Source of the DNA: Ignavibacteriales bacterium
GTDB lineage: Bacteria > Bacteroidota > Ignavibacteria > Ignavibacteriales > Ignavibacteriaceae
Direction of reading: 5' to 3'
Assembly (NCBI GenBank): GCA_012517155.1
Contig: JAAYVN010000053.1
Span: 1-38,775, forward strand
DNA: 38,775 nucleotides
Positions 1-32,735 of the stretch are shown here, piece by piece; within the stretch, counting starts at the first letter, position 1, and the number at the start of each line of letters is the position of its first letter. The notes below the pieces were generated by a model. That model made no database searches and was not told where the DNA came from. It saw nothing but the letters and a program-made list of their open reading frames with translations. Position numbers and translations under genes: made by a program.

Positions 1-98
1 ACCGCAGAGTTTTATCCGGTAGCTAACGGACAGAGACCACAGAGATAAAAACACAGAGGCTACAGAGAAAAACTTTATAAGATTGTTTTACAATAAAT
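1..98 (+). repeat. Dispersed intergenic repeat, copy A
   Basis: Bases 1-45 match 3057-3101 with four mismatches, and bases 62-98 match 16383-16419 with one mismatch (a 37-base block, acagagaaaaact followed by t/a, then tataag onward). This copy contains both halves, whereas the other two copies each hold one. All three are in the same orientation and lie between genes. The element has no coding potential I can support and resembles the 'cacagag' intergenic repeats common in this lineage. Confidence 0.75.
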
Positions 99-274: not shown

Positions 275-369
275 TCCGCGAAGCTTAGCGACGGGTTGTT
301 TTTTGTTTTTATTTAAGAAATAATTCGGCTTATATTTATGTATGTTTTTTAAAAAAATATTTTTTGAGT

Positions 370-1806
370 ATGCATAACAATAATAATCTGACTTTCTCCG
401 TGCAGTGGCATATTACTACTAACTGCAATAATAACTGCCGCCATTGCTATATGTACGATGAGAAAACTTTTGCGGATGAACGCAAGAATACGCTATCTGA
501 TGAACAGCTTATCCGCGTGCTGGATGATCTGACGGGATTCGAAAGGAAGTATGGCGTAAGGTTCTCTACTTTTAATCTTTCCGGTGGTGATCCTGTCAGC
601 CGCCCGGGATGGGACGGGTTTGTGAAGACGCTGAGGGACAGGGGGAAACGGGTTACTATCCTCGGCAATCCGGAATTGCTCTCCGCTGAAAATATAAGTA
701 AGCTGAAATCGCTCGGCGTTAGCCGCTATCAGATGAGTCTGGACGGGCTTGAAAATGACCATGACGATTTCCGCTCCCCGGGTAGTTTCAAACGGACGGT
801 CGCTAAAATTTCCGAGCTTGAGGCAGCGGGCATCCCGTGTCAGATTATGTTCACTTACTACCCCGAGAACAGGAAGCACCTTTTTCCGCTGATTGAATTT
901 CTCTCGGAAAATACGCCTCTTAGCAGTTTCAGTTTTGACATCGGCTGCTCGGCGGGGAATGCGGAGAATCTCAGTACTGATTTCAGCAGGGAGGAAATTA
1001 AAGATGTGCTTGAAAGATATCTGAGGCTGAAGGAGTCGCTTATAAACAGCGGGAAGAAGCTGTTGCTGAGGGAGAAATCCCATTTTCTCCGGCTTTTCAG
1101 GTTTCCGGCTGCTCCGGAGGATCTGAAGACTTTTGAGGCGTTCCCGGTTGCCGAGGGGTGCCACGCTGCGTGGAGCTCGGTGGCGATTCTGAGTGACGGT
1201 AGGCTGATGGCTTGCCGCAGGATGCCGGTGACTTCGGGGAAGATGCCGGAGCAGTCGTTTGAGGAGCTTTTTCTTGGCGATCCGTTTTTCAGGAAGTTGC
1301 GGCGCCGCACTTTCTATAAAGGGTGCTTTGATTGCGCCTATTATCAATACTGCCGCGGCTGTCCCGCATATTGCGAGGGGGAGACGGGGGATCCGTTTGC
1401 GGTTAATCCGGTCTGCATTAAGGAGCTTCTGGATGATACCGGCAAAGTAACCGCCACTTATCCCGACCCGCCGCTTGATGTATCTTTTGGGGAGGAGATG
1501 GATTTTGTTAAATCGGCTTTTCATTATAATCCGGAGAAGTTTTTTGAGCGGCTGAAGGGAAATCCCGTTTTGCGCAATGCCCTGTTCCGGCTTGCCGATG
1601 ACCGGGAGGAGTCCCAGAAGTATATTAACAGTCCTACCAGCTATGCCGGGGAAGAGGGGTTTGATCTTGATGCTTACGATCTTCTGCTGCTGAGGCATTT
1701 CCTTAACTGGGTGGTCTCGGACGGGCTGCTTGTAAGGAAGGATACGGCTCCGGGTATACGGCAATATATTAACTGGCTGAAGTATTACCATATCAGGCAG
1801 AATTGA
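370..1806 (+). CDS. Radical SAM/SPASM RiPP maturase (rSAM-1)
   Basis: This is a radical S-adenosylmethionine enzyme, about 478 aa, expected to modify a co-encoded precursor peptide. The N-terminal CxxxCxxC cluster motif (CNNNCRHC, Cys19/23/26) is the SAM [4Fe-4S] site, and SGGDP near residues 71-75 is the GGEP-like SAM-contacting loop. A SPASM-type auxiliary-cluster region follows, with cysteines near 264, 282, 319, 322, 328, 331, 335 and 349 (pattern GCFDCAYYQYCRGCPAYC). About 120 residues after the SPASM region match nothing I recognise and may bind substrate. I chose the ATG at 370; a TTG at 364 would add two residues. No clear Shine-Dalgarno sequence precedes either. The stop overlaps the start of the toroid gene, so the two are probably coupled. 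The family is certain; reaction and target residue are unknown. Confidence 0.9.
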   Translation: MHNNNNLTFSVQWHITTNCNNNCRHCYMYDEKTFADERKNTLSDEQLIRVLDDLTGFERKYGVRFSTFNLSGGDPVSRPGWDGFVKTLRDRGKRVTILGNPELLSAENISKLKSLGVSRYQMSLDGLENDHDDFRSPGSFKRTVAKISELEAAGIPCQIMFTYYPENRKHLFPLIEFLSENTPLSSFSFDIGCSAGNAENLSTDFSREEIKDVLERYLRLKESLINSGKKLLLREKSHFLRLFRFPAAPEDLKTFEAFPVAEGCHAAWSSVAILSDGRLMACRRMPVTSGKMPEQSFEELFLGDPFFRKLRRRTFYKGCFDCAYYQYCRGCPAYCEGETGDPFAVNPVCIKELLDDTGKVTATYPDPPLDVSFGEEMDFVKSAFHYNPEKFFERLKGNPVLRNALFRLADDREESQKYINSPTSYAGEEGFDLDAYDLLLLRHFLNWVVSDGLLVRKDTAPGIRQYINWLKYYHIRQN

Positions 1807-2762
1807 TGGGGCTTGCCGGGATTGATCGTTCGGTTGATTTCCTCGCCGGGGCGCAAAACAGTGACGGATGCTTTCCCGAGTATATTTTTGTACTGAAGGA
1901 TAATGCCTGGCGGAGGAGCAGACCAACGGTTTTTTCCACTGCCCTGATTGCCGGCGCACTGAGTGAGGTGCTGAAGTACAGGGATTTGCCGGGGGACCGG
2001 AGCAGAGCCGCATGTGAAACTATGCTTAAGAAATCCCTCGATTTTTTTATCGGCCGGATGAAGATGCCCGGACTGTGGAAGTTCGGAATGGCAGGGGATG
2101 AACAGTGGAAGAATCTTCCTTATGATCTTGACGATACCTGCTGTGTTTCGCATCTGCTGAAAAATTACCATCCCTACATCCATTTCGGAATGAATAAAAG
2201 TATTATTATGAAGAACCGGAACAGCGAAGGGATTTTTTATACCTGGCTGCTGCCCGCTTCAATGGCGCACCGGAATGATACGGATACGGTGGTTAACGCC
2301 AATACAATACTTTATCTGGGGGAAATACCGGAGACTGTACGCACAATTGACTATATTTGCGAACTGGTCAATGCCGGAAAGGAGGAGGGGAGTTTCTATT
2401 ACTACCTCGACAGACGGGCGCTTTATTATTTCATTTCGAGGGCTTATTCTGAGGGGGCGGGGGGATTCTCAAAATGCAGGGACAGGATTATAAGCAATAT
2501 TACCGGAGATGATCCGGAGGAAGCCGGTTTTCTGATGAATGCAATGGGGGTCTCCACGCTGGTTAATTTCGGGTGCCGGGATGAGGTGCTGATAACACGC
2601 AGGGTTAAGCAGGTTGCGGAGAGGATGGAAGCGCAGGGGTACTGGGAGAGGTGTCCTGTTTATCAGGGGGAGGAGTATCCAAAACCGGTCGGACTTTACT
2701 GGGGTTCTGAATGTATCTCAACTGCCCTTTGTATTGAGGCAATTGTCAAATCCTCTTTTTAA
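1806..2762 (+). CDS. Alpha/alpha-toroid (squalene cyclase/prenyltransferase-repeat) protein with DLDDT motif
   Basis: This protein of about 318 aa looks like a single alpha/alpha-barrel of the terpene cyclase/prenyltransferase-repeat type. It has an N-terminal QNSDGCF repeat motif and a C-terminal GLYWGSECISTALCIEAI segment of the kind seen in such barrels. Residues 107-111 read DLDDT, the same pattern as the DxDD(T) catalytic-acid motif of class II terpene cyclases; whether it is catalytic here is inference. The start ATG at 1806 shares its A with the TGA stop of the upstream radical SAM gene (TGATG), so expression is probably coupled and a joint role is likely. No signal peptide is visible, so it acts in the cytoplasm. 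Options are a peptide-modifying cyclase, a true terpene cyclase, or a non-catalytic scaffold. A LanC-type zinc site is not evident. Confidence 0.75.
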   Translation: MGLAGIDRSVDFLAGAQNSDGCFPEYIFVLKDNAWRRSRPTVFSTALIAGALSEVLKYRDLPGDRSRAACETMLKKSLDFFIGRMKMPGLWKFGMAGDEQWKNLPYDLDDTCCVSHLLKNYHPYIHFGMNKSIIMKNRNSEGIFYTWLLPASMAHRNDTDTVVNANTILYLGEIPETVRTIDYICELVNAGKEEGSFYYYLDRRALYYFISRAYSEGAGGFSKCRDRIISNITGDDPEEAGFLMNAMGVSTLVNFGCRDEVLITRRVKQVAERMEAQGYWERCPVYQGEEYPKPVGLYWGSECISTALCIEAIVKSSF

Positions 2763-2763
2763 T

Positions 2764-2802
2764 TAATCCGCCGGAGGGGGATTATCTTTTGATCTTTTTT
2801 CC
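2764..2802 (+). terminator. Probable intrinsic terminator after the toroid gene
   Basis: Directly after the stop codon, taatcc (2764-2769) can pair with ggatta (2779-2784) around a G/C-rich loop. It is followed by tcttttgatctttttt. The stem is only six base pairs, so this is a moderate call for the end of the rSAM-1/toroid transcript. Confidence 0.45.
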
Positions 2803-2865
2803 GTTTTCTGATGAGGTTCTTAGGCAAATGGCTGCGCTTAAACGACAAGTACGCAATCTGCCTGC

Positions 2866-3048
2866 GCAGGCTGTTGCAGAACCCATGAAAAAAGAGAATA
2901 TTTAAGAAAATATCCATTTATCTGTCTCTCAAATGGGCTTCTCAGGTGATTTATGGCTTTTAAACGCCAAGTCACGCAAAGTTTTTCGCAAAGTAACGCA
3001 AAGTAAAAAGCAATGTCATGAAAGAAATTACTCATTGCAACAGCCTGC
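2866..3048. repeat. Short inverted repeat bounding a 157-base spacer
   Basis: The 13 bases gcaggctgttgca at 2866-2878 are exactly the reverse complement of tgcaacagcctgc at 3036-3048. The interior is A+T rich and includes short acgcaaag-type repeats. It resembles a small non-autonomous repeat unit, but no target-site duplication was recognised and there is no transposase, so mobility is not shown. Confidence 0.5.
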
Positions 3049-3056
3049 TGCGGCGG

Positions 3057-3101
3057 ACCGCAGAGTTCAATCCGTTGGCTAACGGACAGAGACCACAGAG
3101 A
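3057..3101 (+). repeat. Dispersed intergenic repeat, copy B
   Basis: This 45-base block matches bases 1-45 of the window with four mismatches (it begins accgcagagtt and ends accacagaga). It lies just right of the inverted repeat and corresponds to the left half of copy A only. Confidence 0.7.
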
Positions 3102-3277
3102 GAAATTCCGTATCCATTCACCCATTCACTGTTAACTGTTTGCTCTTTCCCTTTACCTTGCCCTTCCTTCGGCGATTGATAGTTCTTAACCACAGATTTT
3201 ACCGAATGCGGGAAGAATTCCCCGGCAGGATTTTCGGATTCCACCGGGGGTAAATGAGCTTTTGTGCTGAAGATTTC

Positions 3278-3559
3278 TCAGGTGCAGGAGCAGGAGGATT
3301 CGATACAGTCATCCCAGCAAACTCCGCCGGAAACGGCTGAAAGTTCCAGCTCGGACAACTCTTCCTTCGGTTCGCTAAGCACAAGGTTCAGCTTTTTGGG
3401 AGTATCTACATGCACAACCACTTCAAGATCATCCGGCAACCGGAAATTGATTCTTTCCTGAATCACCGATTTGGGATCGGCAATCAGTTTTTCCCTGAAT
3501 TCCGGAGACTCGGAAGCCATCTGCATCAACTTCTCAATGAATTTTTCCTTGGAAGCCAT
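3278..3559 (-). CDS. NHLP-leader RiPP precursor peptide P1
   Basis: A 93-aa precursor peptide: a 79-residue nitrile-hydratase-like leader ending SAVSGG, then a 14-residue core VCWDDCIESSCSCT. The leader has the family pattern: ESPEFREKLIADPKS, LP near residue 41, a short strand (EVVVHVDTP), then NLVL and the ELSELEL segment before GG. The core is rich in Cys, Ser, Asp and begins x-C-W like three of its sisters. The start at 3559 is chosen because AAAGGA sits at proper distance; a GTG at 3574 would add five residues (MKGKK) and overlap that site. It is the last of five tandem copies. The leader should be recognised by the radical SAM machinery and cut after GG by the C39 exporter. The mature product is unknown. 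Confidence 0.88.
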   Translation of the reverse strand: MASKEKFIEKLMQMASESPEFREKLIADPKSVIQERINFRLPDDLEVVVHVDTPKKLNLVLSEPKEELSELELSAVSGGVCWDDCIESSCSCT

Positions 3560-3628
3560 TTTTTTTCCTTTCACTTTAGTGAGAAACAGTAAAATTAAAA
3601 ACCAGGCAGAGGAAAACCGGTGACGGTA

Positions 3629-3907
3629 TCAGGTACAGCCGCAGGAGCCATCGTCGTAATCCCAGCAGACACCGCCGGAAACGGAAGAGAGTTCCATTTC
3701 TGACAATTCCTCCCGGGGTGAGGGGAGTACGATATGAATTTTATCCGGGCTGTCTTCAAGCACAACCACCTCCATATTTTCGGGTAATTTGAACTTGAGT
3801 TTTTCTTCCATCATGCTTTTCGGATTTGCCATAAAATTAGCTCTGAATTCGGGCGATTCTGCCGCTTTCACAGCTATTCTTTGCAGAAAATTTTCTTTTA
3901 TTGCCAT
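3629..3907 (-). CDS. NHLP-leader RiPP precursor peptide P2
   Basis: A 92-aa precursor with a 79-residue leader that ends SSVSGG and a 13-residue core VCWDYDDGSCGCT. The leader is closely similar to P3 and P4 (ESPEFRANF, ANPKSM, EDSPDKIHIVLP). The core shares the VCWD opening with P1 and an ending with two cysteines two residues apart (SCGCT versus SCSCT), so P1 and P2 form one core subtype. AGGAGAA lies 7 bases upstream of the ATG at 3907. It sits between P1 and P3 in the same orientation, with short intergenic spacers, consistent with co-transcription. Confidence 0.88.
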   Translation of the reverse strand: MAIKENFLQRIAVKAAESPEFRANFMANPKSMMEEKLKFKLPENMEVVVLEDSPDKIHIVLPSPREELSEMELSSVSGGVCWDYDDGSCGCT

Positions 3908-3932
3908 AACTTCTCCTTTATTGATTGATGAA

Positions 3933-4211
3933 TTAATATGGGCTGGGTGTTGGTGTGTCGTCGTCCCAGCAACCCCCGCCGGAAACGGCTAAGAGTTCCG
4001 TTTCTGACAACTCTTCTTTGGGCAGGGGGAGTACGATATGAATTTTATCCGGGCTGTCCTCAAGCACAACTATTTCCATATTCTCCGGCAGTTTGAAGCG
4101 GAGTTTCTCCTCAATCATGCTTTTTGGATTTGCTATAAAATTAGCTCTGAATTCGGGTGATTCCCCAGCCTTATCAACTATTTCCTGTATGAATTTTTCT
4201 TTTGGTGTCAT
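3933..4211 (-). CDS. NHLP-leader RiPP precursor peptide P3
   Basis: A 92-aa precursor with a 79-residue leader ending LAVSGG and a 13-residue core GCWDDDTPTPSPY. The core keeps the x-C-W-D-D opening but has only one cysteine and a proline/threonine tail, so a disulphide or Cys-to-Cys link within one peptide is not possible. That makes Cys2, Trp3 or the Asp residues the likely shared modification site. The leader is nearly identical to that of P4 at DNA level over about 70 bases, indicating recent duplication. AGGAGAA precedes the ATG at 4211. Confidence 0.88.
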   Translation of the reverse strand: MTPKEKFIQEIVDKAGESPEFRANFIANPKSMIEEKLRFKLPENMEIVVLEDSPDKIHIVLPLPKEELSETELLAVSGGGCWDDDTPTPSPY

Positions 4212-4228
4212 AACTTCTCCTTTATTGA

Positions 4229-4543
4229 TTAATTAATTAATCCACTAAGACCGCCAGTGCCTCCCCCGCCATTGCTTGCTGTACAATCGTCCTGCCAGCA
4301 TATACCGCCGGAAACTGCCTCCAGTTCTATTTCTGACAATTCCTCCCGGGGAGGCGACGGGAGGACGATATGAATTTTATCCGGGCTGTCCTCAAGCACA
4401 ACTATTTCCATATTCTCCGGCAGTCTGAAGCGGAGTTTTTCTTCGATAATGTTCTTTGGATTTGCCCTGAACTCAGCTCTGAATTCAAGCGATTCCGCAG
4501 TCTTATCAATTATATCCTGCAGGAATTTATCTTTTTCTTCCAT
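4229..4543 (-). CDS. NHLP-leader RiPP precursor peptide P4
   Basis: A 104-aa precursor with an 80-residue leader ending LEAVSGG and the longest core of the set, 24 residues: it opens ICWQDDC and continues into a Gly-rich tail with GGGG and GG blocks ending GLIN. The one extra leader residue is an additional proline in the LPSPPREEL segment. I chose the ATG at 4543 because AAGGAGAG lies just upstream and the N-terminus (MEEKDKFLQDI) then aligns with P1-P3. The longer open frame starting at 4603 adds 20 residues without support. Its Gly-rich tail could be removed or left unmodified. Confidence 0.85.
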   Translation of the reverse strand: MEEKDKFLQDIIDKTAESLEFRAEFRANPKNIIEEKLRFRLPENMEIVVLEDSPDKIHIVLPSPPREELSEIELEAVSGGICWQDDCTASNGGGGTGGLSGLIN

Positions 4544-4679
4544 AATCTCTCCTTGTTGATTAATGAATAACCGATTTTTTTCATCTTCTTGTTTTTCAAA
4601 CAACCATTTTTAATCCCTTTTGAAAAAACAAACGGTTCCGAATGTTAAATATAATAAATTTCCATTCAAGTTATTCAGT

Positions 4680-4699
4680 ACCGGAAAAATATTTCCGGT
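4680..4699. other. Stem-loop between precursor copies P5 and P4
   Basis: accggaaa pairs with tttccggt (8 bp, 4-base loop), 12 bases after the P5 stop on the minus strand. No U-run follows, so it is not a standard intrinsic terminator. It could be a processing site or attenuator separating the precursor array from the upstream biosynthetic genes and helping to raise precursor mRNA levels; that role is inference. Confidence 0.45.
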
Positions 4700-4711
4700 C
4701 ACGCTTGGAGC

Positions 4712-4990
4712 CTATCCGAATGTCTCGCAAAAATAACAGTCCACCATGCAGCTTCCCCCTGCGACCTTGCCGAGTTCTTCTGTGCTTAAATCGTGTTCCG
4801 GCGAAGGGAGGACTATAAAAATCTACTTTGGTGTCTCCTCGCGAACCTCGATTACATACTGCGCGGGAAGTTTGAAACCAAGCAGTTTTTCAACCGCAAT
4901 TTTTGGATTTGCAATCAGCAGCGCCCTGAATTCCTTATATTCCTCCGCCGCTTCTACAACTTTCGCAACTATTTCATTTCTGTTTTTCAT
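4712..4990 (-). pseudogene. NHLP-leader precursor P5 with in-frame amber codon in the leader
   Basis: Reading from the ATG at 4990, preceded by AAGGAG, gives MKNRNEIVAKVVEAAEEYKE and on to EETPK. There is then a TAG at 4823-4825, after which the frame continues IFIVLPSPEHDLSTEELGKV-AGG and a 13-residue core SCMVDCYFCETFG, ending at TAG 4712. Counting the stop as codon 56, the leader is exactly 79 residues, as in P1-P3. Codon 56 is Lys in P1, P2 and P3, so one A-to-T change (AAG to TAG) explains it with no frameshift. The core has three cysteines and keeps Cys at position 2, but has Met instead of Trp at 3. It is the most diverged copy and closest to the maturase gene. It is either a recently killed gene, a sequencing error, or a gene read through at low level. 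Confidence 0.85.
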
Positions 4991-5018
4991 ACCTTCTCCT
5001 TTTTAGTATTAACAACAA

Positions 5019-6500
5019 TTACCTTGCCGGTCTGTATGCAAGGCAGTCAGCGAATAATTCCGGATGGTTTTCCGGTGAATAATGATAATGCTCCGGTTTG
5101 AGTCTTTCCGGGACCAAAGCCGGTTCCGCAAGCAGTTTTTTCCAGAGTGTTGCCGAAACGCCCCGGATATAGTCGCACCGTTCCGGTTCAACGCTCATGA
5201 GTTCCCCGTTCTTTCTGTAACTCTTTACCACGCACCCCCCTCTGCATACATATTCCAGAAAACACTCTCCGCATATCTTTAAATTTTCCGTGGTTCTTTC
5301 CCTCAGGTCCTTTATTCTCTCCCTGAAGAATTCAACTTTCCCTTCGCTGTTTATCCGTCCGCCGAAGAATGTATTCGCCGCAGGATCATCAAGCATCGAA
5401 ACCTCGGGGCAGGGGGACAAATATCCTTCAGGAGTGACTGCGAAGCTGTTTTCCTCGTAATTGTTGCAGAAGAATGGTCGTCCCAGTCTGAGGGACATAG
5501 TAGAAAAGCCCAGAATCGGAATTCCTTTTCTGAGCGAATAATCCCATACGCGGATAAAAGTCTCTTTATATTCATCGTCCGTGAGGGTTTCCGTTTCAAT
5601 AGTGTCCGATCGTCCGAACGGATAAAGCTTGTCAAGGTTGATGCTGGTAATTCCCGCTTCCCGGCAAGTGTCAACAAAGGCGATAAGGTTATCGCGGTTG
5701 TAACTTCCGACCGTTGCTCTCACGGCGCATTTCAGTCCGCGCGAGGTTAGTTCCCCGATATTGCTGAATGCCCTGTCAAACGAGCTTTTGCCGTCGAGGG
5801 AAGGGCGCATCCGGTCGTTAAATTCCTTTGTGCCGTCAATACTGAAGGCAAGTCCCGCCTTCTCTTCAGCAAACCACTCAAGCACATCCCGGTTGAAATT
5901 GCCGTTGGTGATTGACCGCAGACTGCAGTGCAGTCCTTTTTCGGCGCATTGTTTTTTTACCTCGTTCCAGATTTTTTTCAGCAGGGGAAAGGAAACGGTC
6001 GGCTCTCCACCGCCGTGGAAGAGGACCTCAACAGACATTATCTCCGGGGAAAGGTTACCGAGGAGGTGATCAATCCATATTTTTGCATGCGCAAAATCAA
6101 GCTGTTTTGGGGTGGATTCCCCGGCGGATGCATAGCAATAGATGCACCGGAGGTTGCATGAATTCGTGGGGTAAAATGTAATGTTGAGGGTGTTGATTTC
6201 CGGATACTTCTGCACAAGTTCCGGCTGATGGAGGATGCGGTTCCGCCTTAAAAACGAGAGGAGATCAAAAATGCCGGAATCAAGTTTATGCCGGACGACT
6301 ATTTCATTGGTTGTTTGTTCCCCGTCGAAATCATTCAGAAACCGGCGCATTCCATCGCTCAGTTCCATGAAGGATATTACGGGGACGAAACGGTTTAGGT
6401 ATGCATAATCTTTTCCGTCTTCCCGGAAATATTTTATGTTCCTGTTAAGCAGAAGCTTTTCAGCGTTGAGGGAAAAAAGTTCCTGTATTGGTATACTCAT
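5019..6500 (-). CDS. Radical SAM/SPASM RiPP maturase (rSAM-2) with PqqD/RRE-like N-terminus
   Basis: A 493-aa radical SAM peptide maturase. Residues ~20-95 look like a PqqD-type leader-binding (RRE) segment (LSDGMRRFLNDFDGEQTTNEI, broken at residue 68, then HKLDSGIFDLLSFLRRNRIL). The SAM cluster motif CNLRCIYC is at Cys115/119/122, the SAM loop GGGEPT at 163-168, and the SPASM region has Cys345, 364, 410, 413, 419, 423 and 442 (CGECFLEYVCRGGC). The architecture matches the anSME/sactipeptide-type maturases, which make thioether or C-C crosslinks or other changes on peptides; which applies here cannot be read from sequence. It lies 28 bases upstream of P5 and is the likely main modifying enzyme of the array, since it carries its own leader-binding domain while rSAM-1 shows none. 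Confidence 0.92.
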   Translation of the reverse strand: MSIPIQELFSLNAEKLLLNRNIKYFREDGKDYAYLNRFVPVISFMELSDGMRRFLNDFDGEQTTNEIVVRHKLDSGIFDLLSFLRRNRILHQPELVQKYPEINTLNITFYPTNSCNLRCIYCYASAGESTPKQLDFAHAKIWIDHLLGNLSPEIMSVEVLFHGGGEPTVSFPLLKKIWNEVKKQCAEKGLHCSLRSITNGNFNRDVLEWFAEEKAGLAFSIDGTKEFNDRMRPSLDGKSSFDRAFSNIGELTSRGLKCAVRATVGSYNRDNLIAFVDTCREAGITSINLDKLYPFGRSDTIETETLTDDEYKETFIRVWDYSLRKGIPILGFSTMSLRLGRPFFCNNYEENSFAVTPEGYLSPCPEVSMLDDPAANTFFGGRINSEGKVEFFRERIKDLRERTTENLKICGECFLEYVCRGGCVVKSYRKNGELMSVEPERCDYIRGVSATLWKKLLAEPALVPERLKPEHYHYSPENHPELFADCLAYRPAR

Positions 6501-6565
6501 TTATCTTTTACGGCAATTATTAATCGTGAATAAAACATATTTTCTTTAATCAGACCTGAAACAGG

Positions 6566-7654
6566 TCAGGTATCCATCCCTTTCCTGCCAAAGCCCGCCC
6601 ACAGATAAACCTTGGCGAAATTTTCCCTTCCCGCTCCCGGCGTGAACTTGAGATGATGCAGCGCCTGGGCATAGAATTCAGGGGGATAAGGGGCGCTCAT
6701 TAATTCCGGCACGCCGGCGGTTGCAACCTTGCGCGGGAAATTCAAAATTTCATTCATCATATTCCCGCTGCAGTAATTCTCCTTCACCAGCAGTGCGAGG
6801 ACCTCCTGCCATCGTTTCTCGTATGCCGGCTGTCTTTTTTTATTGTAGTAGCACTCCACCCCCCATTTCACAATCACGCCGCGAAGGACGTCCAGTGAGA
6901 GGGCGAAATGGTCGAAGAACATTCCGTACTTTTCCACAATTTCCTTTACTTCCGCTGCCATGCCGGAAGGGGGAAAGAGATCGCCGGCAATGCTGAGAAG
7001 TTTTTCACCGGTAAATCTTTTCAGGCAGACTCTCACCGGGGAATCCGGTCTGGAGAGCATTATACCGGTTTGAAAAAGCGAATACTCCGGAAATATCTTT
7101 TCCGAAGTTTCCCGCATGAAGGCAGCCGTATCCGCATTTAACGGGGAGCCGGAAAGTTTTCCGATTCCTTCATTAAATACATTCAGCCGGTTAAAAAGTT
7201 GGTTCTTGTTTTCCGGATGGTCCTGAATAAATCCCTTTTCAATTCCCAGAAAGAGGGACGGGGTGGTGTTGCCGGCGAGCAGGGAATCGAAATCGAATTC
7301 AAGGCAGATCACTTCAGGCACAATCCCCCCGGCGTCCGGAACATCTTTCCACCGGGAGGTGCAGGCTTCCAGCCTTTTCCAGGCGGGGTCTTCATCCGCC
7401 AGTTTCTTTAATCCGGGAAACGTGAACGACGAATTGAAATTAAACGGAGCGGGTCTGGTCACTGATCCCGAAACCGCGAGATCGGCTTTTCCTTCTTCGC
7501 TCGCCAGTTTTTTTTCGTACCCGAAGACGGAGTAGGAAAAAGTATCGGGGAGAAACTCCAGGCTATTCAGCATCACCAGCTTGTTTTTTTCGGAGATTAT
7601 TTCCGGGGAAATATGCTTAAGTGAGAATCCGAGATATTTGCCGAACGTGTCCAT
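6566..7654 (-). CDS. Uncharacterised 362-aa RiPP-cluster protein
   Basis: I do not recognise an established family. The protein is soluble in appearance, with no signal peptide or membrane segment. Distinct blocks are VICLEFDFDSLL followed by TPSLFLGIEKG (about 113-140), GIMLSRPDSPVRVCLKRF (about 197-214), and a C-terminal HLKFTPG then AKVYLWAGFGRKG (last ~30 residues). From memory these blocks recall uncharacterised proteins encoded beside other RiPP clusters, but this is not verified. It lies between the C39 exporter and rSAM-2 in the same direction with short gaps (25 and 65 bases), so it is almost surely part of the operon. It may be a modifying enzyme, an immunity factor or a carrier protein. 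The C-terminal beta-rich pattern is loosely like ABBA-fold prenyltransferases, a weak idea only. Confidence 0.75.
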   Translation of the reverse strand: MDTFGKYLGFSLKHISPEIISEKNKLVMLNSLEFLPDTFSYSVFGYEKKLASEEGKADLAVSGSVTRPAPFNFNSSFTFPGLKKLADEDPAWKRLEACTSRWKDVPDAGGIVPEVICLEFDFDSLLAGNTTPSLFLGIEKGFIQDHPENKNQLFNRLNVFNEGIGKLSGSPLNADTAAFMRETSEKIFPEYSLFQTGIMLSRPDSPVRVCLKRFTGEKLLSIAGDLFPPSGMAAEVKEIVEKYGMFFDHFALSLDVLRGVIVKWGVECYYNKKRQPAYEKRWQEVLALLVKENYCSGNMMNEILNFPRKVATAGVPELMSAPYPPEFYAQALHHLKFTPGAGRENFAKVYLWAGFGRKGMDT

Positions 7655-7679
7655 TTATTTTCTCAATATGAAAGATTAA

Positions 7680-9830
7680 TTACTCTTTAATTAGCTTCTG
7701 ATAGAGTCCGGGGACATTTTTAAGTTCATCATGAGTGCCGCGCTGTACAACCTTTCCGCCGTCCAGCACTATTATTTCGTCGCAGTCCCGTATGGTGCTG
7801 AGTCTGTGAGCAATAATAATGCACGTGCACCCCCGTTTTCTGATATTATCGTCAATGGTTTTCTCGGTTTTTGCATCCAGCGCGCTGGTTGCCTCGTCCA
7901 GTATAAGTATGGAGGGACGGTTTACCAAAGCCCTGGCAATATCGATTCTTTGTCTCTGTCCGCCTGAGAAATTCTTTCCCCCTTCGGAAACTTTTGAATC
8001 GTATCCCCCCGGGCGGGAGGTAATATCATCGTGCATATCTGCATCTTTTCCCGCCTGGATAATTTCCCCCTCGGGAATATCGGTATCCCAGAAGGTAATA
8101 TTATCCCTTATCGTCCCCTCGAACAGGAAGATATCCTGATCAACCAGGGAAATTGAATGCTGCATGACAATCGGTGGAATGTTTTCCCGTTTCATTCCGT
8201 CAAAAAGAATCTCACCGCTCCATGGCTTGTAAAGCCCGCCGACGAGTTTTGAAATGGTTGACTTGCCGCTCCCTGTTTTGCCGACGATTGCCACTCTTGA
8301 GCCGGGTTTCATTGTCAGGGAGAAATCGGAGATTAGCGGTCGCTCCAGTCTTTCATATCCGAAAGTCACGTTCCTGAGTTCCAGATAGCCGTCCAGTTTT
8401 ATTTTACCGTCGGAGGTTCTTGAATCATCGCTGTAAACATTTACCGGGTCTGCCGGATAGTTATGCACGTCATCAAGTCTTTTAAGATTGCCTTCGATAA
8501 TCTGCATAGTGCTGCCGAGATTTACGAGCATGCTGACCGGCATCATAAGACTAACCGCAAGGCTCTGAACCGCAACCAGTATGCCCACCGTCATTTCCCC
8601 CTGCATTATTCTGACCGCCCCGGCTATCAGGATGATTACGGAGAGAAGGGAATTGAGAAACACCGGAACGAGGTTGAGGAACTGGGTAAGGAATACAAGT
8701 TTCTGCTGAGAGTTGATAACCCTTGAGTGAAGCCCTGTCCATCTGGAGAAGAATTCGCTTTCCGAAGCCCGTGCTTTTATCGACTCAATCATCTGCAAAC
8801 CCGCGGTGGAGAAGGCATAGAGCATTCCCCGCTCCTGCATGGAAATCTGATTCTCGTCCCTGCGCCTTGCGGAGAAATATTTCAGGGCAAAAAAGTTCAG
8901 AGTGGAAAAAAACACGGTAATAAGCGCCAGGGTAATATCGTAATAAGCCATCAGCAGGAGATAAAAAACAATCATCAGCAGGCTGAGGAGGGTATTGGCA
9001 AGCTGCCCGGTGAGCATTTCCGCTGTGCCGTCGTTGATTATCAGTCTTTGCCCCAGCTCGTTCGGAGACCGCTGGGTGTAGAACTCGGCGGGGAGTTTAA
9101 GCAGGTGACTGAAGAATTTTCCCGAAGTCCCTGCAGAGATTCCAATTTTCAGCTTGAGCAGGAAATTCTGCTGGATGAAAGTGAATATACCTTTCACCGC
9201 GGCGGCAAGGAGAAGCCCTCCCAGCAAGGGGATTATCCAGTTAGTGGTTTCCTTTATCCACACCTCGTCTATGTACATTTTTGAAATGACCGGGACGATG
9301 ATATTCGGAATAATAAGTGCGGCACCGGTAAGCAGGAGAAAAAGCAGCGGGGAAAGGAAGGGGAGGAGCCGCTTTTTAAGCGATGAGTAGAAAGTGTTCT
9401 TTACACCCCCTTTAACGAAATCCGGTCCGGGGGAGAAGGTCATCACCACACCGGTGAATGATCTGTCGAATTCGGCAAGGGGGACTTTCCGCTTTCCGGA
9501 GGCGGGATCGTTTACATATATGAACTCGTCCGAAAATCCCTCTACAACTATAAAATGATAGAACCTCCAGAAGACAATGAGCGGGAGCTGCATTTTTTTA
9601 AGATCCTCAGGTTCCTTGCTGTAGGCTTTCACCTCCAGCCCGTGTTTTCTTGCTGCCCGGGCTATGTTGCTTGCCTTGCTTCCGTTCCTCGAAATTCCGC
9701 AGTCCAGCCGGAGTGCCTCAAGCGGTATGAACTTACCGAAATAGGCAAGCACCATTGCAAGCGAGGCGGCACCGCACTCGGCTGCTTCCATCTGCAGGAT
9801 TGTGGGGGTATTTATTCTCTTTCTTTTCAA
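7680..9830 (-). CDS. NHLM-type ABC exporter with C39 leader peptidase
   Basis: A 716-aa peptidase-containing ATP-binding exporter (PCAT). The N-terminal C39 domain has catalytic Cys19 (MEAAECGAAS), His92 (RFYHFIVV) and Asp108 (VNDPASG); it should cut NHLP leaders after the GG ending and pass the core outward. A transmembrane domain with about six helices follows (about 165-445). The ATPase has Walker A GKTGSGKST, signature FSGGQRQR, Walker B ILILDEATSALD and the H-loop IIAHRLST. All catalytic residues are present. The start is TTG at 9830, nine bases after the HlyD stop; ATG choices would remove part of the C39 domain. This matches the family named NHLM bacteriocin system ABC transporter, peptidase/ATP-binding protein. 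Confidence 0.93.
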   Translation of the reverse strand: MKRKRINTPTILQMEAAECGAASLAMVLAYFGKFIPLEALRLDCGISRNGSKASNIARAARKHGLEVKAYSKEPEDLKKMQLPLIVFWRFYHFIVVEGFSDEFIYVNDPASGKRKVPLAEFDRSFTGVVMTFSPGPDFVKGGVKNTFYSSLKKRLLPFLSPLLFLLLTGAALIIPNIIVPVISKMYIDEVWIKETTNWIIPLLGGLLLAAAVKGIFTFIQQNFLLKLKIGISAGTSGKFFSHLLKLPAEFYTQRSPNELGQRLIINDGTAEMLTGQLANTLLSLLMIVFYLLLMAYYDITLALITVFFSTLNFFALKYFSARRRDENQISMQERGMLYAFSTAGLQMIESIKARASESEFFSRWTGLHSRVINSQQKLVFLTQFLNLVPVFLNSLLSVIILIAGAVRIMQGEMTVGILVAVQSLAVSLMMPVSMLVNLGSTMQIIEGNLKRLDDVHNYPADPVNVYSDDSRTSDGKIKLDGYLELRNVTFGYERLERPLISDFSLTMKPGSRVAIVGKTGSGKSTISKLVGGLYKPWSGEILFDGMKRENIPPIVMQHSISLVDQDIFLFEGTIRDNITFWDTDIPEGEIIQAGKDADMHDDITSRPGGYDSKVSEGGKNFSGGQRQRIDIARALVNRPSILILDEATSALDAKTEKTIDDNIRKRGCTCIIIAHRLSTIRDCDEIIVLDGGKVVQRGTHDELKNVPGLYQKLIKE

Positions 9831-9839
9831 GTTCGCCTG

Positions 9840-10715
9840 TTATTTGTCAAATATAAAGCTTAAAATAGTCTTGCTTTCCGTGATTATCTTCAGTGTGCAG
9901 TAGCTTGTCCTTATGAAATCAATGGATGCCCCCCTGGCGGAAGTCCATTTCAGTTTTCCCGATTCATACACGGGGGTTATCAGTATCTCGAAATAGTCAT
10001 CCTTCGAAATATCGGACAGCAGCTGGTTTTCGCGCACAAGCATTTTCTTTCTTTCCGGGGAGACCGGGTAGTTTGCAATTTTTGTGAGCGTCCCCGTCAG
10101 ATAGCCGAATTCCTTTGCATCAATATTATGGGGGGAGATAAGGACCTTATTCCCCGTCCTTACGGAGTTTACCTGCTTTGCCGATAAAAATCCGGTGATG
10201 GTGAATTTGTTTTTCAGCGAGTCAGCCAGATCCTCATTGCCGGAAACCTCGACGGAGAGGAGCTTGTCTCCGATGCGTACAAAATCACCTTCCGAAACAT
10301 TTATCTCGAAGACCGTGCCGCAGGCAGGGGAAAGAATTGCGGAGCTGGTTGGAGAGGAGACCGGTCCGGAGGTTTTTGTGCTGAGGGAAGCGAGCTCATC
10401 CGCAGTCAGAAGATCCGCAAGGAAATCCCCCTTCTTTACCGGAGCGCCCGGAAATACCGAGAGATTTTTTATGAAACCCTCCCTGAGTGCGGGGATGCCG
10501 GTAACCGTGCCCTGCCTTACAATCAGTCCGCGGCACCCGGTCTCCCGGCTGATATTGCTGAAGCCCAGCCAGAAAAAGAGGGTGAAGGAAATCAGAATAA
10601 AAAGGAGGAGGAGTATCCAGCTTCTTATTGTTATTATCTGGACCGCTCCGTCTGTCTCTTCCGGTTTCGTGAAGCGCTCCATTGCCTTGTCTCTGAAAAG
10701 TTTTTTATTAAACAT
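9840..10715 (-). CDS. NHLM-type HlyD-family secretion adaptor
   Basis: A 291-aa membrane fusion protein: short cytoplasmic N-terminus, one transmembrane helix at about residues 31-52 (SWILLLLFILISFTLFFWL), then a periplasmic barrel-sandwich region with lipoyl-like halves (LIVRQGTVTGIPALREGFIK and GTVFEINVSEGDFVRIGDKL). It should link the two inner-membrane ABC proteins to the envelope. It lacks the long coiled coil of classic HlyD, as is usual in the NHLM type. No outer-membrane TolC gene is in the window. It sits between the two ABC genes, with a nine-base gap on its downstream side. Confidence 0.9.
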   Translation of the reverse strand: MFNKKLFRDKAMERFTKPEETDGAVQIITIRSWILLLLFILISFTLFFWLGFSNISRETGCRGLIVRQGTVTGIPALREGFIKNLSVFPGAPVKKGDFLADLLTADELASLSTKTSGPVSSPTSSAILSPACGTVFEINVSEGDFVRIGDKLLSVEVSGNEDLADSLKNKFTITGFLSAKQVNSVRTGNKVLISPHNIDAKEFGYLTGTLTKIANYPVSPERKKMLVRENQLLSDISKDDYFEILITPVYESGKLKWTSARGASIDFIRTSYCTLKIITESKTILSFIFDK

Positions 10716-10761
10716 AAGTCAAAAAATATTTAAACATCTGCCCTGCGGGCATGAAATAAAT

Positions 10762-13677
10762 TTATGCGGTTTCATTCAGCTGTCTTTTAACCAGCTCCGT
10801 GAAGAAACCGTTTTTACTGTACAATTCCTCGTAGTTCCCCGATTCCACAATTTTTCCCTTCTCCATCACGTATATCATATCGGCATCCTTAATTGTGCTC
10901 AGTCTGTGCGCAACGATAATTCTTGTTGCCTGTATATGCGAAAAATAATCAGCAAGAACTTTCTGGGATTCATTATCAAGAGCGCTGGTTGCCTCGTCAA
11001 GGAAAAGGACTGATGGCTTGTTTATGACCGCCCTGGTAATAAGTATTTTCTGGCGCTGCCCTCCGGAAAGTGTGCTGAGTCCTTCGCTTACCGGGGTGAA
11101 GAGTCCCATCGGCATGGTTTTCAGATCCTCATCAAGTCCGGTAACTTTACAAACCTCATTCACATACTCGACCGGATAATTCGTAACTCCTGCGATATTA
11201 GTATAAATATTGCCGGGCATCAGCCGGGTGTTCTGCATTACCGTACCGATTTTCCGCCTAAGGCTCCCCGCATCAATAGAGTCGATATTCAGATTGTCAT
11301 AATAGATCGATCCCAGTTCCGGGGTTTCAAAACCCAGGAGCATTCTCAGCAGGGTGGTTTTTCCCGAGCCTGAAGCCCCCACCACCGCAACAAACTCCCC
11401 GGGATTAACGGTCATGGAAATATCGGAAAGAATATATTCCCCCTCTTTATCATACTTGAAGAAGAGGTGGTCAATCCCGATTTTCCCTTTCAGTGCGGAT
11501 ATGCTTTCCTTCTTAACCGAGTATTCGGGAAGTTCATTGAGTATTTCCTTTGCGTTTTCAAACAGTGGGAGCGCCATGAAAAGATTTACCGCCACGTTGC
11601 TCATCTGCATGACGGACAACATAAATACGTTGAATGCCGTCAGGAAGGAGAGGAGTGTGCCGGCGGAGAATGCGATATATCTTTCAGAGGTAAAAAGAAA
11701 ATATATGAAAATGGTGGCGAGCACCGGGAAAACGGAATTCAGCACTACTATTGCACTGGAATGTTTTTTCATGCTCAGATTTTCACGCTGCTGGACCACG
11801 TACTTATCCGCCCAGAGTTTGAATGCCTGGTTCTCAACTCCTGCAATCCTTATCTTCGAAATGCTGTTCAGCAGCTGGTTGACCAGACTTGAGATCTTGT
11901 TCTCCTGTTTTATTACCCGGTAGTTTACTTTCCTGACCTTGTTTCCGAAATAAATTACCGTCCGGATAAAAAGCGCAAAGAGAAGCGCAGACAATATCCC
12001 GAGCAGCCAGTCATAATAAAACAATATGAAAAGATTCGAGACCAGGAAGAGATTGTAAACAATTGTATTTATGATTGTGAGGGATAGCATCTGCTTGAGC
12101 ATTGCAATACTGTTGGCTTTGGAGGCAAGCTCCCCCGATGAGAATTTCTTAAAGAAAGAAACGGGAAGGTTGATCAGCCTGTCCCATACAGCCGACTGGA
12201 CAACCAGGTCGGTTTTCGCATCCAGCCGCTGAAAACTCAGCCCCCTGATCACCTGCGCAATCATGAATGCAAAACTGGCGAACAGCAGGGAAATTCCAAG
12301 CCCGGTGAGTTTTGAATAATCATTTGCCGGTATAGCGGAATCAAGAATAACCCCGGTAACCAGGGGGACGAAGAGACTGAGCAGACCGCCGATGGTTCCC
12401 GCGCCTAGCAGGAAAAGCACTTCCTTCCTTGCCGAGGAGAGTATGAACGTGAAAAGTTCTTTTGCTGTGATCTGCCTGTTCGGGAAAGGACGGTAAAAAG
12501 TGAATGCATTTTCTCCGATCCTTTCTGCCAGTTCCGGAGTCAGTCCGGCATCAATATTTTCAGCCGGTATAATAATCCTGTATCTCCCGAATGCATTGGG
12601 AATAAGCACAGCCGGATTTTTTGTATCCTCAGTATAAGAAATGAAAGCGCTTGAGTCGGTCTTTGCCCAGTTTTCCTGGAGTTTCAGATGCCTTAACGCA
12701 AATTTGGAAAAAGCCGCAATCTGTTCCGGTCCCGCAGAGTTTCCTTCCTTGTCTTCGGGGGGTTCGGAGATGGGGATGTTCAGGTGACGGGCAAGGATCT
12801 TTGCCGCCCGGAAAATTTTATTTCCCGATTCCGCTTCCTTTTTCCGGAAAGCATCCGGCTGCAGAACACTTTCAATACTCTTTTCCGCCTGCCTGCTGAT
12901 CTCCTTGCGCCGGTCGAGTTTTACTTTGTTCCGGACGAAGTTATCAACCAGCTGCATTCTTATATTGAGTTCTTCAAGTTCAAGGAGTTTCAGGTGATAA
13001 GTCTCGAGGAAGTACCAGAACCCGTCTTTCTGTATCAGAGTGTGAGTGGCAAGAGGTGCGGTTTCAAAATCCTTTGCAGATAATATCCACGCATTGTCGG
13101 TCAGGGGAAAGAAGATGCTTTTTTCAAATTCCAGCAATTCCGAATCAAGCAGGGAAACGGAGCCTGATTCAACCTCCATCCACAGCACTCCTTTTTTTGC
13201 GCGGACTTTCTGATTCTGCTTTACAATAACCGTCTGGGGTTTATTAATCCCTTCATCCGCCGGAGCGGAAACGGCAAGATCATATCGGAGGCTGTGGTCC
13301 CTTGCCACACCGGAGGTAATATTTAATATCCACTGATCGGTAAGATATGCAAGCTCATCAAGCCCCGTTAAAGAATCGGTCAGGGATTTACGGGAGACGT
13401 TTAAGATGAGAGTATCCGTATCTCCGGAAGCAAGGAAGCAGCGGTGTGATAATGAGGAGTCAAGGTCCATACCGAACAGGATGCTGCCTGAAGGGGCAGA
13501 GAAGAGGTAAGTCCTGGCTCCTTTTATCCAGCCCTCTTCCCGTTTTACGGAGAAGACATCAACGTTTCCCGATTTAATCAGCCAGATATTATCCCTGCCT
13601 TCCAGCAGGAGGGGATTATTATTCCCGGCTTTAAGGGGGGTGCCTTTGTGGTTGAAATATTCAGTAACTGATTGCAA
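10762..13677 (-). CDS. NHLM-type ABC transporter, ATP-binding/permease protein without C39
   Basis: A 971-aa ABC protein. The first ~380 residues form a long cytoplasmic part beginning with a cyclic-nucleotide-binding-like barrel (NIWLIKSGNVDVFSVKREEG). Then come about six membrane helices and an ATPase with Walker A VVGASGSGKTT, signature LSGGQRQK, Walker B VLFLDEATSALD and IIVAHRLST. There is no C39 peptidase. This matches the companion ABC protein of NHLM bacteriocin export systems; with the peptidase ABC and HlyD it completes the export triad. The only plausible start is TTG at 13677, since the next Met is around residue 69; no good ribosome binding site is visible. It is the first gene of the minus-strand operon, so the operon promoter should lie just right of 13677. 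Confidence 0.9.
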   Translation of the reverse strand: MQSVTEYFNHKGTPLKAGNNNPLLLEGRDNIWLIKSGNVDVFSVKREEGWIKGARTYLFSAPSGSILFGMDLDSSLSHRCFLASGDTDTLILNVSRKSLTDSLTGLDELAYLTDQWILNITSGVARDHSLRYDLAVSAPADEGINKPQTVIVKQNQKVRAKKGVLWMEVESGSVSLLDSELLEFEKSIFFPLTDNAWILSAKDFETAPLATHTLIQKDGFWYFLETYHLKLLELEELNIRMQLVDNFVRNKVKLDRRKEISRQAEKSIESVLQPDAFRKKEAESGNKIFRAAKILARHLNIPISEPPEDKEGNSAGPEQIAAFSKFALRHLKLQENWAKTDSSAFISYTEDTKNPAVLIPNAFGRYRIIIPAENIDAGLTPELAERIGENAFTFYRPFPNRQITAKELFTFILSSARKEVLFLLGAGTIGGLLSLFVPLVTGVILDSAIPANDYSKLTGLGISLLFASFAFMIAQVIRGLSFQRLDAKTDLVVQSAVWDRLINLPVSFFKKFSSGELASKANSIAMLKQMLSLTIINTIVYNLFLVSNLFILFYYDWLLGILSALLFALFIRTVIYFGNKVRKVNYRVIKQENKISSLVNQLLNSISKIRIAGVENQAFKLWADKYVVQQRENLSMKKHSSAIVVLNSVFPVLATIFIYFLFTSERYIAFSAGTLLSFLTAFNVFMLSVMQMSNVAVNLFMALPLFENAKEILNELPEYSVKKESISALKGKIGIDHLFFKYDKEGEYILSDISMTVNPGEFVAVVGASGSGKTTLLRMLLGFETPELGSIYYDNLNIDSIDAGSLRRKIGTVMQNTRLMPGNIYTNIAGVTNYPVEYVNEVCKVTGLDEDLKTMPMGLFTPVSEGLSTLSGGQRQKILITRAVINKPSVLFLDEATSALDNESQKVLADYFSHIQATRIIVAHRLSTIKDADMIYVMEKGKIVESGNYEELYSKNGFFTELVKRQLNETA

Positions 13678-32424: not shown

Positions 32425-32471
32425 ATTTCTTCGATACAATTCTCTTTTCCCACGAAGATAATTGATTGAAT

Positions 32472-32634
32472 ACTTAATGGCAGGTCTCCTGACTCAAGAG
32501 TAAAAACCCGGTTGCCTTCCCATCATTAAAGACAGTGGCGTGGTGGGTTCATTCTGAACATCTCTTTTACAGTTGCGGGGACAGTTACGGAATTTTACCG
32601 TATTCCCTATTAATGCAATAATGCAACCATTAGT
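32472..32634 (-). promoter_or_regulatory. Cobalamin riboswitch
   Basis: On the minus strand the conserved core reads ccgtaactgtccccgcaact (from about 32589 to 32570) and the B12 box is gagtcaggagacctgcc (32495-32479). The closing stem P1 pairs actaatgg (32634-32627) with ccattaagt (32480-32472). All hallmark blocks of the cobalamin aptamer are present. It governs the btuB-like gene and the propeller gene behind it. Confidence 0.95.
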
Positions 32635-32735
32635 AAATATTTTAAAGAACTAAGCAAAGTTAAATAATTTCCGGTCAACGGCAAAAGAAGAAATCAAAAT
32701 AAAGAAGAAATTTCAGGATCAAGATGAAAACCGGA

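Follow-up and report, generated by a model that had tools for sequence, protein, structure and literature searches.

The window analysed here, the whole of a 38,775-bp contig (C124) from an Ignavibacteriales bacterium whose assembly measures 3.29 Mb in 160 contigs and is 99.65% complete, carries a row of ten minus-strand genes for a candidate ribosomally synthesised and post-translationally modified peptide (RiPP) with NHLP leaders. This row, found by open reading frame (ORF) calling and profile scanning, runs in one orientation from 13677 to 3278 and encodes, in order, NHLM exporter subunit 2, a short HlyD protein, NHLM exporter subunit 1 with its C39 domain, a 362-residue protein, a radical S-adenosylmethionine (SAM) enzyme called here radical SAM 2, and five NHLP precursors. 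The intergenic gaps measure 46, 9, 25, 65, and 28 bp from exporter subunit 2 through precursor 1, and 17, 25, and 69 bp among precursors 2 to 5, with about 170 bp between precursors 1 and 2 (by arithmetic, counted from the second stop of precursor 1); we infer that the ten genes form one transcript. The 362-residue protein belongs to a recurrent RiPP-linked protein family that is apparently undescribed.

The NHLP operon and its precursors

The genes of the operon are as follows (NHLP leader model TIGR03793, cut-off 50.9 bits).

10762..13677, minus strand: NHLM exporter subunit 2, an ATP-binding cassette (ABC) permease/ATPase with an N-terminal extension, 971 residues, first gene of the operon (TIGR03797, 735.4 bits, cut-off 709.4)
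9840..10715, minus strand: short HlyD-type adaptor, 291 residues (TIGR03794, 98.7 bits, under the cut-off of 156.2)
7680..9830, minus strand: NHLM exporter subunit 1, C39 peptidase/permease/ATPase, 716 residues (TIGR03796, 1004.2 bits, cut-off 853.3)
6566..7654, minus strand: 362-residue member of an unnamed RiPP-linked family (ten-member alignment A2 and gene neighbourhoods)
5019..6500, minus strand: radical SAM 2, a radical SAM/SPASM peptide maturase, 493 residues (PF04055, 46 bits)
4712..4990, minus strand: NHLP precursor 1, with an in-frame TAG at 4823-4825; past the TAG the leader ends in GG and the core is SCMVDCYFCETFG
4229..4543, minus strand: NHLP precursor 2, leader of 80 residues, core ICWQDDCTASNGGGGTGGLSGLIN (TIGR03793, 65.8 bits)
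3933..4211, minus strand: NHLP precursor 3, leader of 79 residues, core GCWDDDTPTPSPY (TIGR03793, 63.9 bits)
3629..3907, minus strand: NHLP precursor 4, leader of 79 residues, core VCWDYDDGSCGCT (TIGR03793, 65.5 bits)
3278..3559, minus strand: NHLP precursor 5, leader of 79 residues, core VCWDDCIESSCSCT (TIGR03793, 52.5 bits)

An initial annotation of this DNA had described five tandem NHLP precursors with leaders of 79-80 residues to GG. The lengths (79, 80, 79, 79, and 79 residues for precursors 1 to 5) and the GG before a variable core in all five bear this out, with the correction that precursor 1 is interrupted by its TAG and reaches GG only past it. The four intact precursors all pass TIGR03793 in hmmscan, and all five do so with stops read through; precursor 1 scores 66.5 bits only in that way and 40.4 bits as a 55-residue open frame. 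It is otherwise complete, and its TAG could be a mutation, a read error, or decay; reassignment of TAG in this genome was also considered and set aside. The true starts of precursors 2 and 5 are likely the internal ATGs at 4543 and 3559, judging from the leader alignment. The leaders of precursors 2 to 4 are 75-78% identical, with only 3-4 identical positions of 13 in their cores, a combination of conserved leaders and variable cores that is typical of RiPPs. Precursors 1 and 5 have diverged further (37-57% leader identity), and core length ranges from 13 to 24 residues. With stops read through, the source genome holds five NHLP leader matches, all within this locus, and none occurs in 58 other close relatives, so that a chance pattern is not a credible explanation. 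NHLP leaders are present in 12 of 394 other genomes of the phylum. Because these leaders, the 362-residue protein, and the toroid protein described below are rare in the relatives sampled, the locus is probably an acquired island in its lineage, as far as these genome samples can tell.

The export set had been called complete (C39-ABC, HlyD, ABC), and it is present, with the two exporter subunits above the cut-offs of their NHLM models and the HlyD adaptor short and below its own; in the same manner, the profile searches proposed earlier bear out TIGR03793, TIGR03796, and TIGR03797 and leave TIGR03794 under its threshold. The C39 peptidase of subunit 1 is expected to cut after GG. The short adaptor and the in-frame TAG are what an ordinary NHLP locus in decay might present; this explanation is most improbable, given the open frames of precursors 2 to 5, of the two exporters, and of radical SAM 2, each of which fits its model along most of the protein. 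The operon is probably functional apart from precursor 1. The earlier description of an NHLP/NHLM locus lacking LanM, YcaO, and methyltransferase genes also stands, as none was found among the matches listed (best 25) in Pfam and NCBIfam scans of the seven large cluster proteins, and no epimerase was seen in the operon. Lanthipeptide and thiazole/oxazole-modified microcin chemistry was accordingly set aside as a candidate, since these scans of the seven proteins revealed no LanM and no YcaO/SagB gene.

The 362-residue family and its partner peptides

The 362-residue protein had been listed as an unknown; it is no orphan, with relatives on four plasmids and in four credible genomes of the phylum. 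It has no Pfam or NCBIfam match (one stray BTAD match, E 0.31, appears in another member), and as a single query it found nothing in 293 other genomes of its class. Searches by tblastn detected relatives in 4 of 72,556 plasmid records (E 3e-14 to 3e-5), and profile A1 gave matches in 5 of 295 other genomes of the phylum, four of them credible (G500, G337, G457, and G362); the fifth (G039; 21 bits over 48 positions) was dropped as likely chance. Contig scans with exact or degenerate stretches of the 362-residue protein and radical SAM 2 gave no match, nor did viral contigs scanned with profile A1 by the same short-stretch method, which misses relatives of 25% identity, so that these blanks do not count as absence. 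Ten sequences make up the family so far; three cyanobacteria and one proteobacterium contribute members, as do genomes of the phylum to which the window belongs.

Of the eight loci of relatives outside the window, five have a clear RiPP setting, with NHLP precursors, Nif11 precursors, or an NHLM exporter. For example, the locus of Azospirillum B510 contains eight NHLP-like ORFs (one of them scored, at 82.5 bits) and a LanM gene (402 bits), and that of Nostoc UHCC 0926 contains NHLP and Nif11 precursors together with LanM (955 bits) and the epimerase PoyD (573 bits). In Azospirillum these approximately eight ORFs (L058, about 2100-8000) have long hydrophobic cores, and the plasmid table carries no annotation for them. 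The Pseudanabaena member is fused to a 2-oxoglutarate (2OG)-Fe(II) oxygenase and lies beside LanM and Nif11 precursors, and the Acaryochloris member is split into two ORFs next to a Nif11 precursor and a radical SAM C-methyltransferase (by annotation). Within the phylum, the G500 member lies on a contig of 3.9 kb, where it comes after an NHLM exporter subunit 2 (897 bits) and a DUF7005 protein; the three genes stand in a row (L091, 9-3948), and the DUF7005 protein carries a HECTH motif. The gene ahead of the G337 member resembles HPr kinase weakly (25.5 vs a cut-off of 33.3), and those of G457 and G362 (two copies) are near 7TM-DISM sensors and small peptides ending in GGTW and NPNW. The sensor is a histidine kinase in one of these sets and a guanylate cyclase in the other (L090, 9590-13237; L092, 8637-15040), and both sets could be ComX/PalX-style prenyl-peptide signalling systems without NHLP leaders. 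The neighbourhood comparison proposed in the initial annotation has therefore a mixed outcome: the 362-residue family is linked to NHLP, Nif11, or NHLM genes at those five loci, no such link was seen for the toroid protein at the five loci of its relatives, and no close relative of radical SAM 2 was found by which to judge.

A more specific link involves Trp. Modification of Trp is already documented for peptides with long leaders. PalQ prenylates the C-terminal Trp of an NHLP peptide, its leader being helpful and not essential (PMC10853753). MppC, which requires the leader, adds a geranyl group to one Trp in a Nif11 lanthipeptide (PMC12715784), and SrpI, which requires it too, is a brominase acting on the C-terminal Trp in a proteusin (PMC10858898). 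At the loci of the 362-residue relatives, 8 of 15 NHLP or Nif11 precursors end in Trp by hand count, namely seven of eight in Azospirillum, one of two in Pseudanabaena (where the second precursor looks frame-shifted), and none of five in Nostoc. The control consisted of loci in 12 genomes of the phylum where a tblastn search with members of the family detects none at E 1e-3, and it took 58 of the 60 NHLP matches outside the window's genome (two on other stretches were left out); none of these 58 precursors ends in Trp. The difference corresponds to a Fisher P of 5e-7 with precursors as the unit of counting, although seven of the eight Trp-ending precursors share one locus. Beyond the 15 counted, an Acaryochloris Nif11 ORF of 56 residues ends in YWH; the Trp-ending peptides of G457 and G362 were picked by that very feature and do not form an unbiased count. 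Small ORFs called mechanically in eight loci with the 362-residue gene end in Trp in 28 of 1059 cases. We propose from these sequence associations that the 362-residue protein is a Trp-modifying enzyme. Several points weigh against this proposal: the C-terminal Trp signal comes mostly from Azospirillum and is absent from Nostoc, the cores of the window do not end in Trp, and 23 of the 58 control precursors, all at loci without the 362-residue gene, have Trp somewhere in the core. Since core Trp is so common without this gene, the Trp at position 3 of the window cores proves little.

The fold offers a further hint. Alignment A2 suggests, as read by eye, five strand pairs with helices after each, as in prenyltransferase barrels, and the family looks alpha+beta. 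Conservation is concentrated in Asp58 (9/9), in Asp121, Pro132, Gly197, and Arg208 (10/10 each), in Arg202 (9/10), and in Lys348 and Tyr350 (8/8 each). The best local profile match to NphB and eight relatives lies between residues 171-242 and NphB 140-211, the third unit in each; with ten members this match scores 21.65, a value reached by 2 of 200 shuffles, and the reversed controls score 15.9 and 16.9. Asp58 aligns with NphB Asp62, a residue that presumably binds magnesium, in four of four MAFFT runs. A number of results pull in the other direction. The HH-suite probability of the NphB match is just 1%, and 1 of 19 unrelated proteins or families outscores it (NtrC, a single protein, 26.9); the five-member match (20.19) is not significant, being reached by 18 of 300 shuffles and by one of the two reversed controls; Lys348 aligns with NphB Lys284 in none of the four runs; and the family profiles match no Pfam or NCBIfam family and, credibly, no solved structure. 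No credible PDB match emerged in searches with the 362-residue protein, with its relative from Nostoc, or with profiles A1 and A2, and no profile match places the family among the alpha-beta-beta-alpha (PT-barrel) prenyltransferases. AlphaFold run on single sequences, with no alignment, returned a pLDDT (predicted local distance difference test) of 36.8 for the 362-residue protein and of 35.2 for the toroid protein. On balance, a prenyltransferase barrel seems about as probable as not for this family, and prenylation of Trp falls somewhat short of an even chance. Other candidates were rejected: a PalQ/ComQ isoprenoid synthase fold has no Pfam or NCBIfam match at E up to 10 in five members, and neither a peptide-arginase nor a GNAT acyltransferase reading found a model match.

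Alternatively, the 362-residue protein might have no catalytic role and act as an adaptor, binding NHLP or Nif11 leaders and offering them to the tailoring enzyme of the given locus. The variety of enzymes with which the family co-occurs (LanM, PoyD, the radical SAM C-methyltransferase, and radical SAM 2), the oxygenase fusion in Pseudanabaena, and the failure of any profile to tie the family to an enzyme family are all in line with such a function; the invariant charged residues Asp58, Asp121, Arg208, and Lys348 resemble an active site, the family is linked to C-terminal Trp in partner peptides, and the peptides near the G457 and G362 relatives fit neither NHLP nor Nif11 models, all of which make the adaptor somewhat unlikely.

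The predicted crosslink and the flanking gene pair

The second enzyme of the operon, radical SAM 2, has a weak SPASM match (14.9 bits vs a cut-off of 21.5), and its best NCBIfam models are PapB (121.5 bits), CefB (118.4), and the SCIFF maturase (96), all under cut-off. Its best PDB match is 5wgg (E 5e-19), which we take to be CteB. At E up to 1e-20, only weak matches appear, in 6 of 394 other genomes of the phylum; the fullest plasmid relative, from Methylocystis (93% coverage, 27.8% identity), is followed, 32 bp downstream, by an ORF that contains 19 Cys and 26 Asp/Glu and is likely its substrate, and a Caballeronia relative likewise precedes an ORF with a Cys cluster. The Methylocystis ORF (L063, 10458-10844) comes directly after the radical SAM gene and has its Cys spaced with Asp/Glu. 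In its Cys-rich stretch, where seven spacings were tried, Cys-X2-[DE] is enriched (10 occurrences, reached by 23 of 5000 shuffles), and this spacing is shared with four of the five window cores.

The window cores have Cys at position 2 in all five. Cys-Trp occurs in four of five (6 of 20000 shuffled core sets reach that), as do Cys-X3-[DE] (600 of 20000) and Cys-X2-[DE] (900 of 20000, with Cys-X2-Asp counted from Cys2), and the Cys-Xn-Asp/Glu motifs of ranthipeptides are thus present in both spacings; Cys-X4-[DE] and [DE]-X3-Cys show no enrichment over shuffled cores. Six motifs were tried, and because the precursors are duplicates the shuffle figures overstate independence. Since radical SAM 2 is nearest to PapB and 5wgg and its relatives precede ORFs rich in Cys and acidic residues, we predict from sequence that it is a thioether maturase forming a Cys2-Asp5 crosslink. 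PapB accepts Cys-Xn-Asp with n = 0-6 (PMC9413430). This prediction has to contend with the PapB model itself, whose cut-off of 340 lies well above the score obtained, and with the Methylocystis peptide, in which adjacent Cys-[DE] is equally enriched (10 occurrences, 27 of 5000 shuffles) and Cys-X3-[DE], the known spacing of PapB, is depleted (1 of 19 Cys). A carbon-carbon cyclophane of the triceptide type between Trp3 and Asp5, in place of the Cys thioether, would account for Trp-X-[DN] in three of five cores (380 of 20000 shuffles) and for Trp3 in four of five. Such a cyclophane is nevertheless unlikely, as the best matches of radical SAM 2 are the thioether maturases PapB and 5wgg, the cyclophane models DynA and YhhB stay below PapB at 89 and 73 bits, Cys2 is present in every core and Trp3 in four, and clustered Cys mark the ORFs downstream of two relatives.

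On the opposite strand lies a second gene pair.

364..1806, plus strand: radical SAM 1 (SPASM), 480 residues (PF04055, 73.4 bits; SPASM, 28.4 bits), linked to the operon by proximity only
1803..2762, plus strand: alpha/alpha-toroid protein with a DLDDT motif, 319 residues (family alignment A3), overlapping radical SAM 1 by 4 bp
1..49, plus strand: 49-nt repeat at the contig end, left of the radical SAM 1/toroid pair (90% identical to 3057-3105)
3057..3105, plus strand: 49-nt repeat between the toroid gene and the precursors, a direct repeat of 1-49

The 22-nt core of the repeat has three copies in the genome, the third on another contig (C83). Radical SAM 1 finds its best NCBIfam model in the ACGX-system maturase TIGR04340 (225.5 bits, under the cut-off of 400); a search at E up to 1e-25 across 115 other relatives gave no match to it. 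Relatives of the toroid protein are likewise missing from the 115 other relatives and occur in 3 of 295 other genomes of the phylum. DxDD is the motif of class II terpene cyclases, which to our knowledge use two domains. Across the toroid family D108, D110, and T112 are invariant (6/6) and D111 is Asn in one member; one relative (L094) passes the squalene-hopene cyclase C-terminal model (27.3 vs 26.1 bits), and the window protein has no squalene-hopene cyclase match at E up to 1 and no credible match in the PDB. A UbiA prenyltransferase is near or fused in five of the five toroid relatives found (L093, L094, L095, L062, and L061), being fused in Nostoc (C052), within about 1 kb in three, and 5.3 kb away in G396; we know of no name for this gene pair. 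Glycosyltransferases or ABC transporters also occur at several of these loci. No NHLP match was seen at the five, and no radical SAM 1 match in the three stretches from the same phylum; the stretch from G396 has, at its edge, one weak match to radical SAM 2 (E 1e-5).

Radical SAM 1 and the toroid protein are left out of the pathway because they lie on the opposite strand, converge with the operon, are bracketed by repeats, and have, in the case of the toroid protein, relatives near UbiA; they are probably a separate pair. The initial annotation was right about two distinct SPASM radical SAM proteins, allowing for the weak SPASM match of radical SAM 2, and about a DxDD toroid, whose D-L-D-D-T motif is present and whose relative passes the cyclase model. 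It had also grouped both radical SAM proteins, the toroid, and the 362-residue protein as one enzyme set, and this grouping is not supported, with only radical SAM 2 and the 362-residue protein in the operon. A common pathway, in which radical SAM 1, the toroid protein, and the 362-residue protein together attach an isoprenoid to the peptide and cyclise it, is quite improbable: it would agree with the toroid end lying 515 bp from precursor 5, with the DxDD motif, and with UbiA within 6 kb or fused in all five relatives, and it meets, besides the tail-to-tail arrangement with 49-nt repeats on both sides and the lack of NHLP matches at the relatives' loci, a single-domain toroid where the known cyclases have two domains. 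Only the association of the toroid with UbiA and the hint of prenylation in the 362-residue family speak for retaining a joint terpenoid reading.

Ten of the other proteins on the contig were scanned against Pfam, and nine belong to ordinary families (OBG GTPase, succinate dehydrogenase flavoprotein, M48 and M14 peptidases, TonB receptors, TauE, lectin, and sensor domain), with one lacking a match. A cobalamin riboswitch (RF00174, 113 bits, 32462-32646, minus strand) lies upstream of a TonB-dependent receptor at 30402-32363.

A candidate pathway and its known counterparts

Taking the gene content as a guide, a proteusin-type (NHLP-leader) RiPP operon making short crosslinked peptides by means of radical SAM 2, the 362-residue enzyme, and the exporter appears to us as probable as all other readings together. 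The folded leader would hand the core to radical SAM 2, which, by analogy with PapB and CteB, would join Cys2 to a nearby Asp as a non-alpha thioether. The 362-residue enzyme would next modify the neighbouring Trp, possibly by prenylation, and the C39 domain of the exporter would cleave after GG, with secretion of the product. A broader proposal, somewhat unlikely as a whole and offered tentatively, is that the family represents a new leader-guided class of peptide Trp-modifying enzymes, most likely non-PalQ barrel prenyltransferases, which in the window would act alongside a radical SAM enzyme that crosslinks NHLP peptides by thioethers; we have not met this combination elsewhere. The boldest version adds cyclisation of the attached isoprenoid by the DxDD toroid, which would yield terpenoid-decorated, crosslinked proteusins. 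The significance of the locus is that an "unknown" becomes a testable family tied to NHLP and Nif11 peptides, and perhaps to C-terminal Trp; if the family prenylates Trp, it would provide a leader-guided lipidation tool distinct from PalQ, ComQ, and the cyanobactin enzymes. The natural cores also provide a ready set of substrates on which the spacing of radical SAM crosslinks can be mapped.

Polytheonamide and landornamide are examples of NHLP/proteusin products. Clusters of the nostatin A type share with the window the NHLP leader, the GG, and C39-ABC/HlyD/ABC export (PMC11583998), whereas the window has short Cys-Trp-Asp cores and an operon showing no sign of LanM or YcaO, nor of an epimerase or a methyltransferase; the 362-residue family itself is present in the Nostoc locus with NHLP, LanM, and PoyD. 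Another example is the anaerobe clusters in which NHLP or Nif11 precursors occur with radical SAM genes, where an NHLP precursor near a SPASM radical SAM gene is the common element (PMC4289311). Two genomes of the phylum, G595 and G477, have this arrangement with short Cys cores such as TYWACERCTYPVV, and differ from the window in a radical SAM protein nearest TIGR04463 (under cut-off) and in that no 362-residue member was found in the stretches covered. There, the precursors with short Cys cores stand beside maturases nearest the TIGR04463 and Clo7bot models (L035, 5530-7993; L036, 13182-15432). The ACGX system (L065) is the closest model for radical SAM 1, with its cut-off unreached and ACGX repeats in none of the five window cores.

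Among Trp-modifying systems, PalQ/PalX combines an NHLP precursor, a conserved, prenylated C-terminal Trp, and a histidine kinase gene, and so resembles the partner peptides of the 362-residue family (PMC10853753); PalQ has an isoprene synthase fold, for which the family has no match. MppC is alike in its dependence on a Nif11 leader, in modifying one Trp, and in its barrel of alpha-beta-beta-alpha type; it differs in acting on a lanthionine ring and is placed by its authors with the cyanobactin prenyltransferases (PMC12715784), to which the 362-residue family has no NCBIfam match. SrpI shares the proteusin leader and the modified C-terminal Trp, but is a flavin enzyme (PMC10858898). The only literature found for the family, which has no searchable name, in a survey of sources outside subscription, concerns the LanM/Nif11 locus on Pseudanabaena plasmid pPg_03, called cyanotin-like, where the oxygenase-fused member accompanies a Nif11 precursor whose last residue is Trp; the text of that paper mentions neither prenyl nor oxygenase (PMC11356792). 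Unlike the window, this is a LanM locus, with no radical SAM gene annotated in the stretch covered. For the crosslink, PapB (PMC9413430) and CteB are the closest models for radical SAM 2, and the window cores share their Cys-Xn-Asp/Glu motifs; the score below the PapB cut-off, the NHLP leader, and a Cys-X2-Asp spacing as frequent as Cys-X3 set the window apart. The class of system to which the window belongs is therefore known, and its enzyme combination and its 362-residue family look new.

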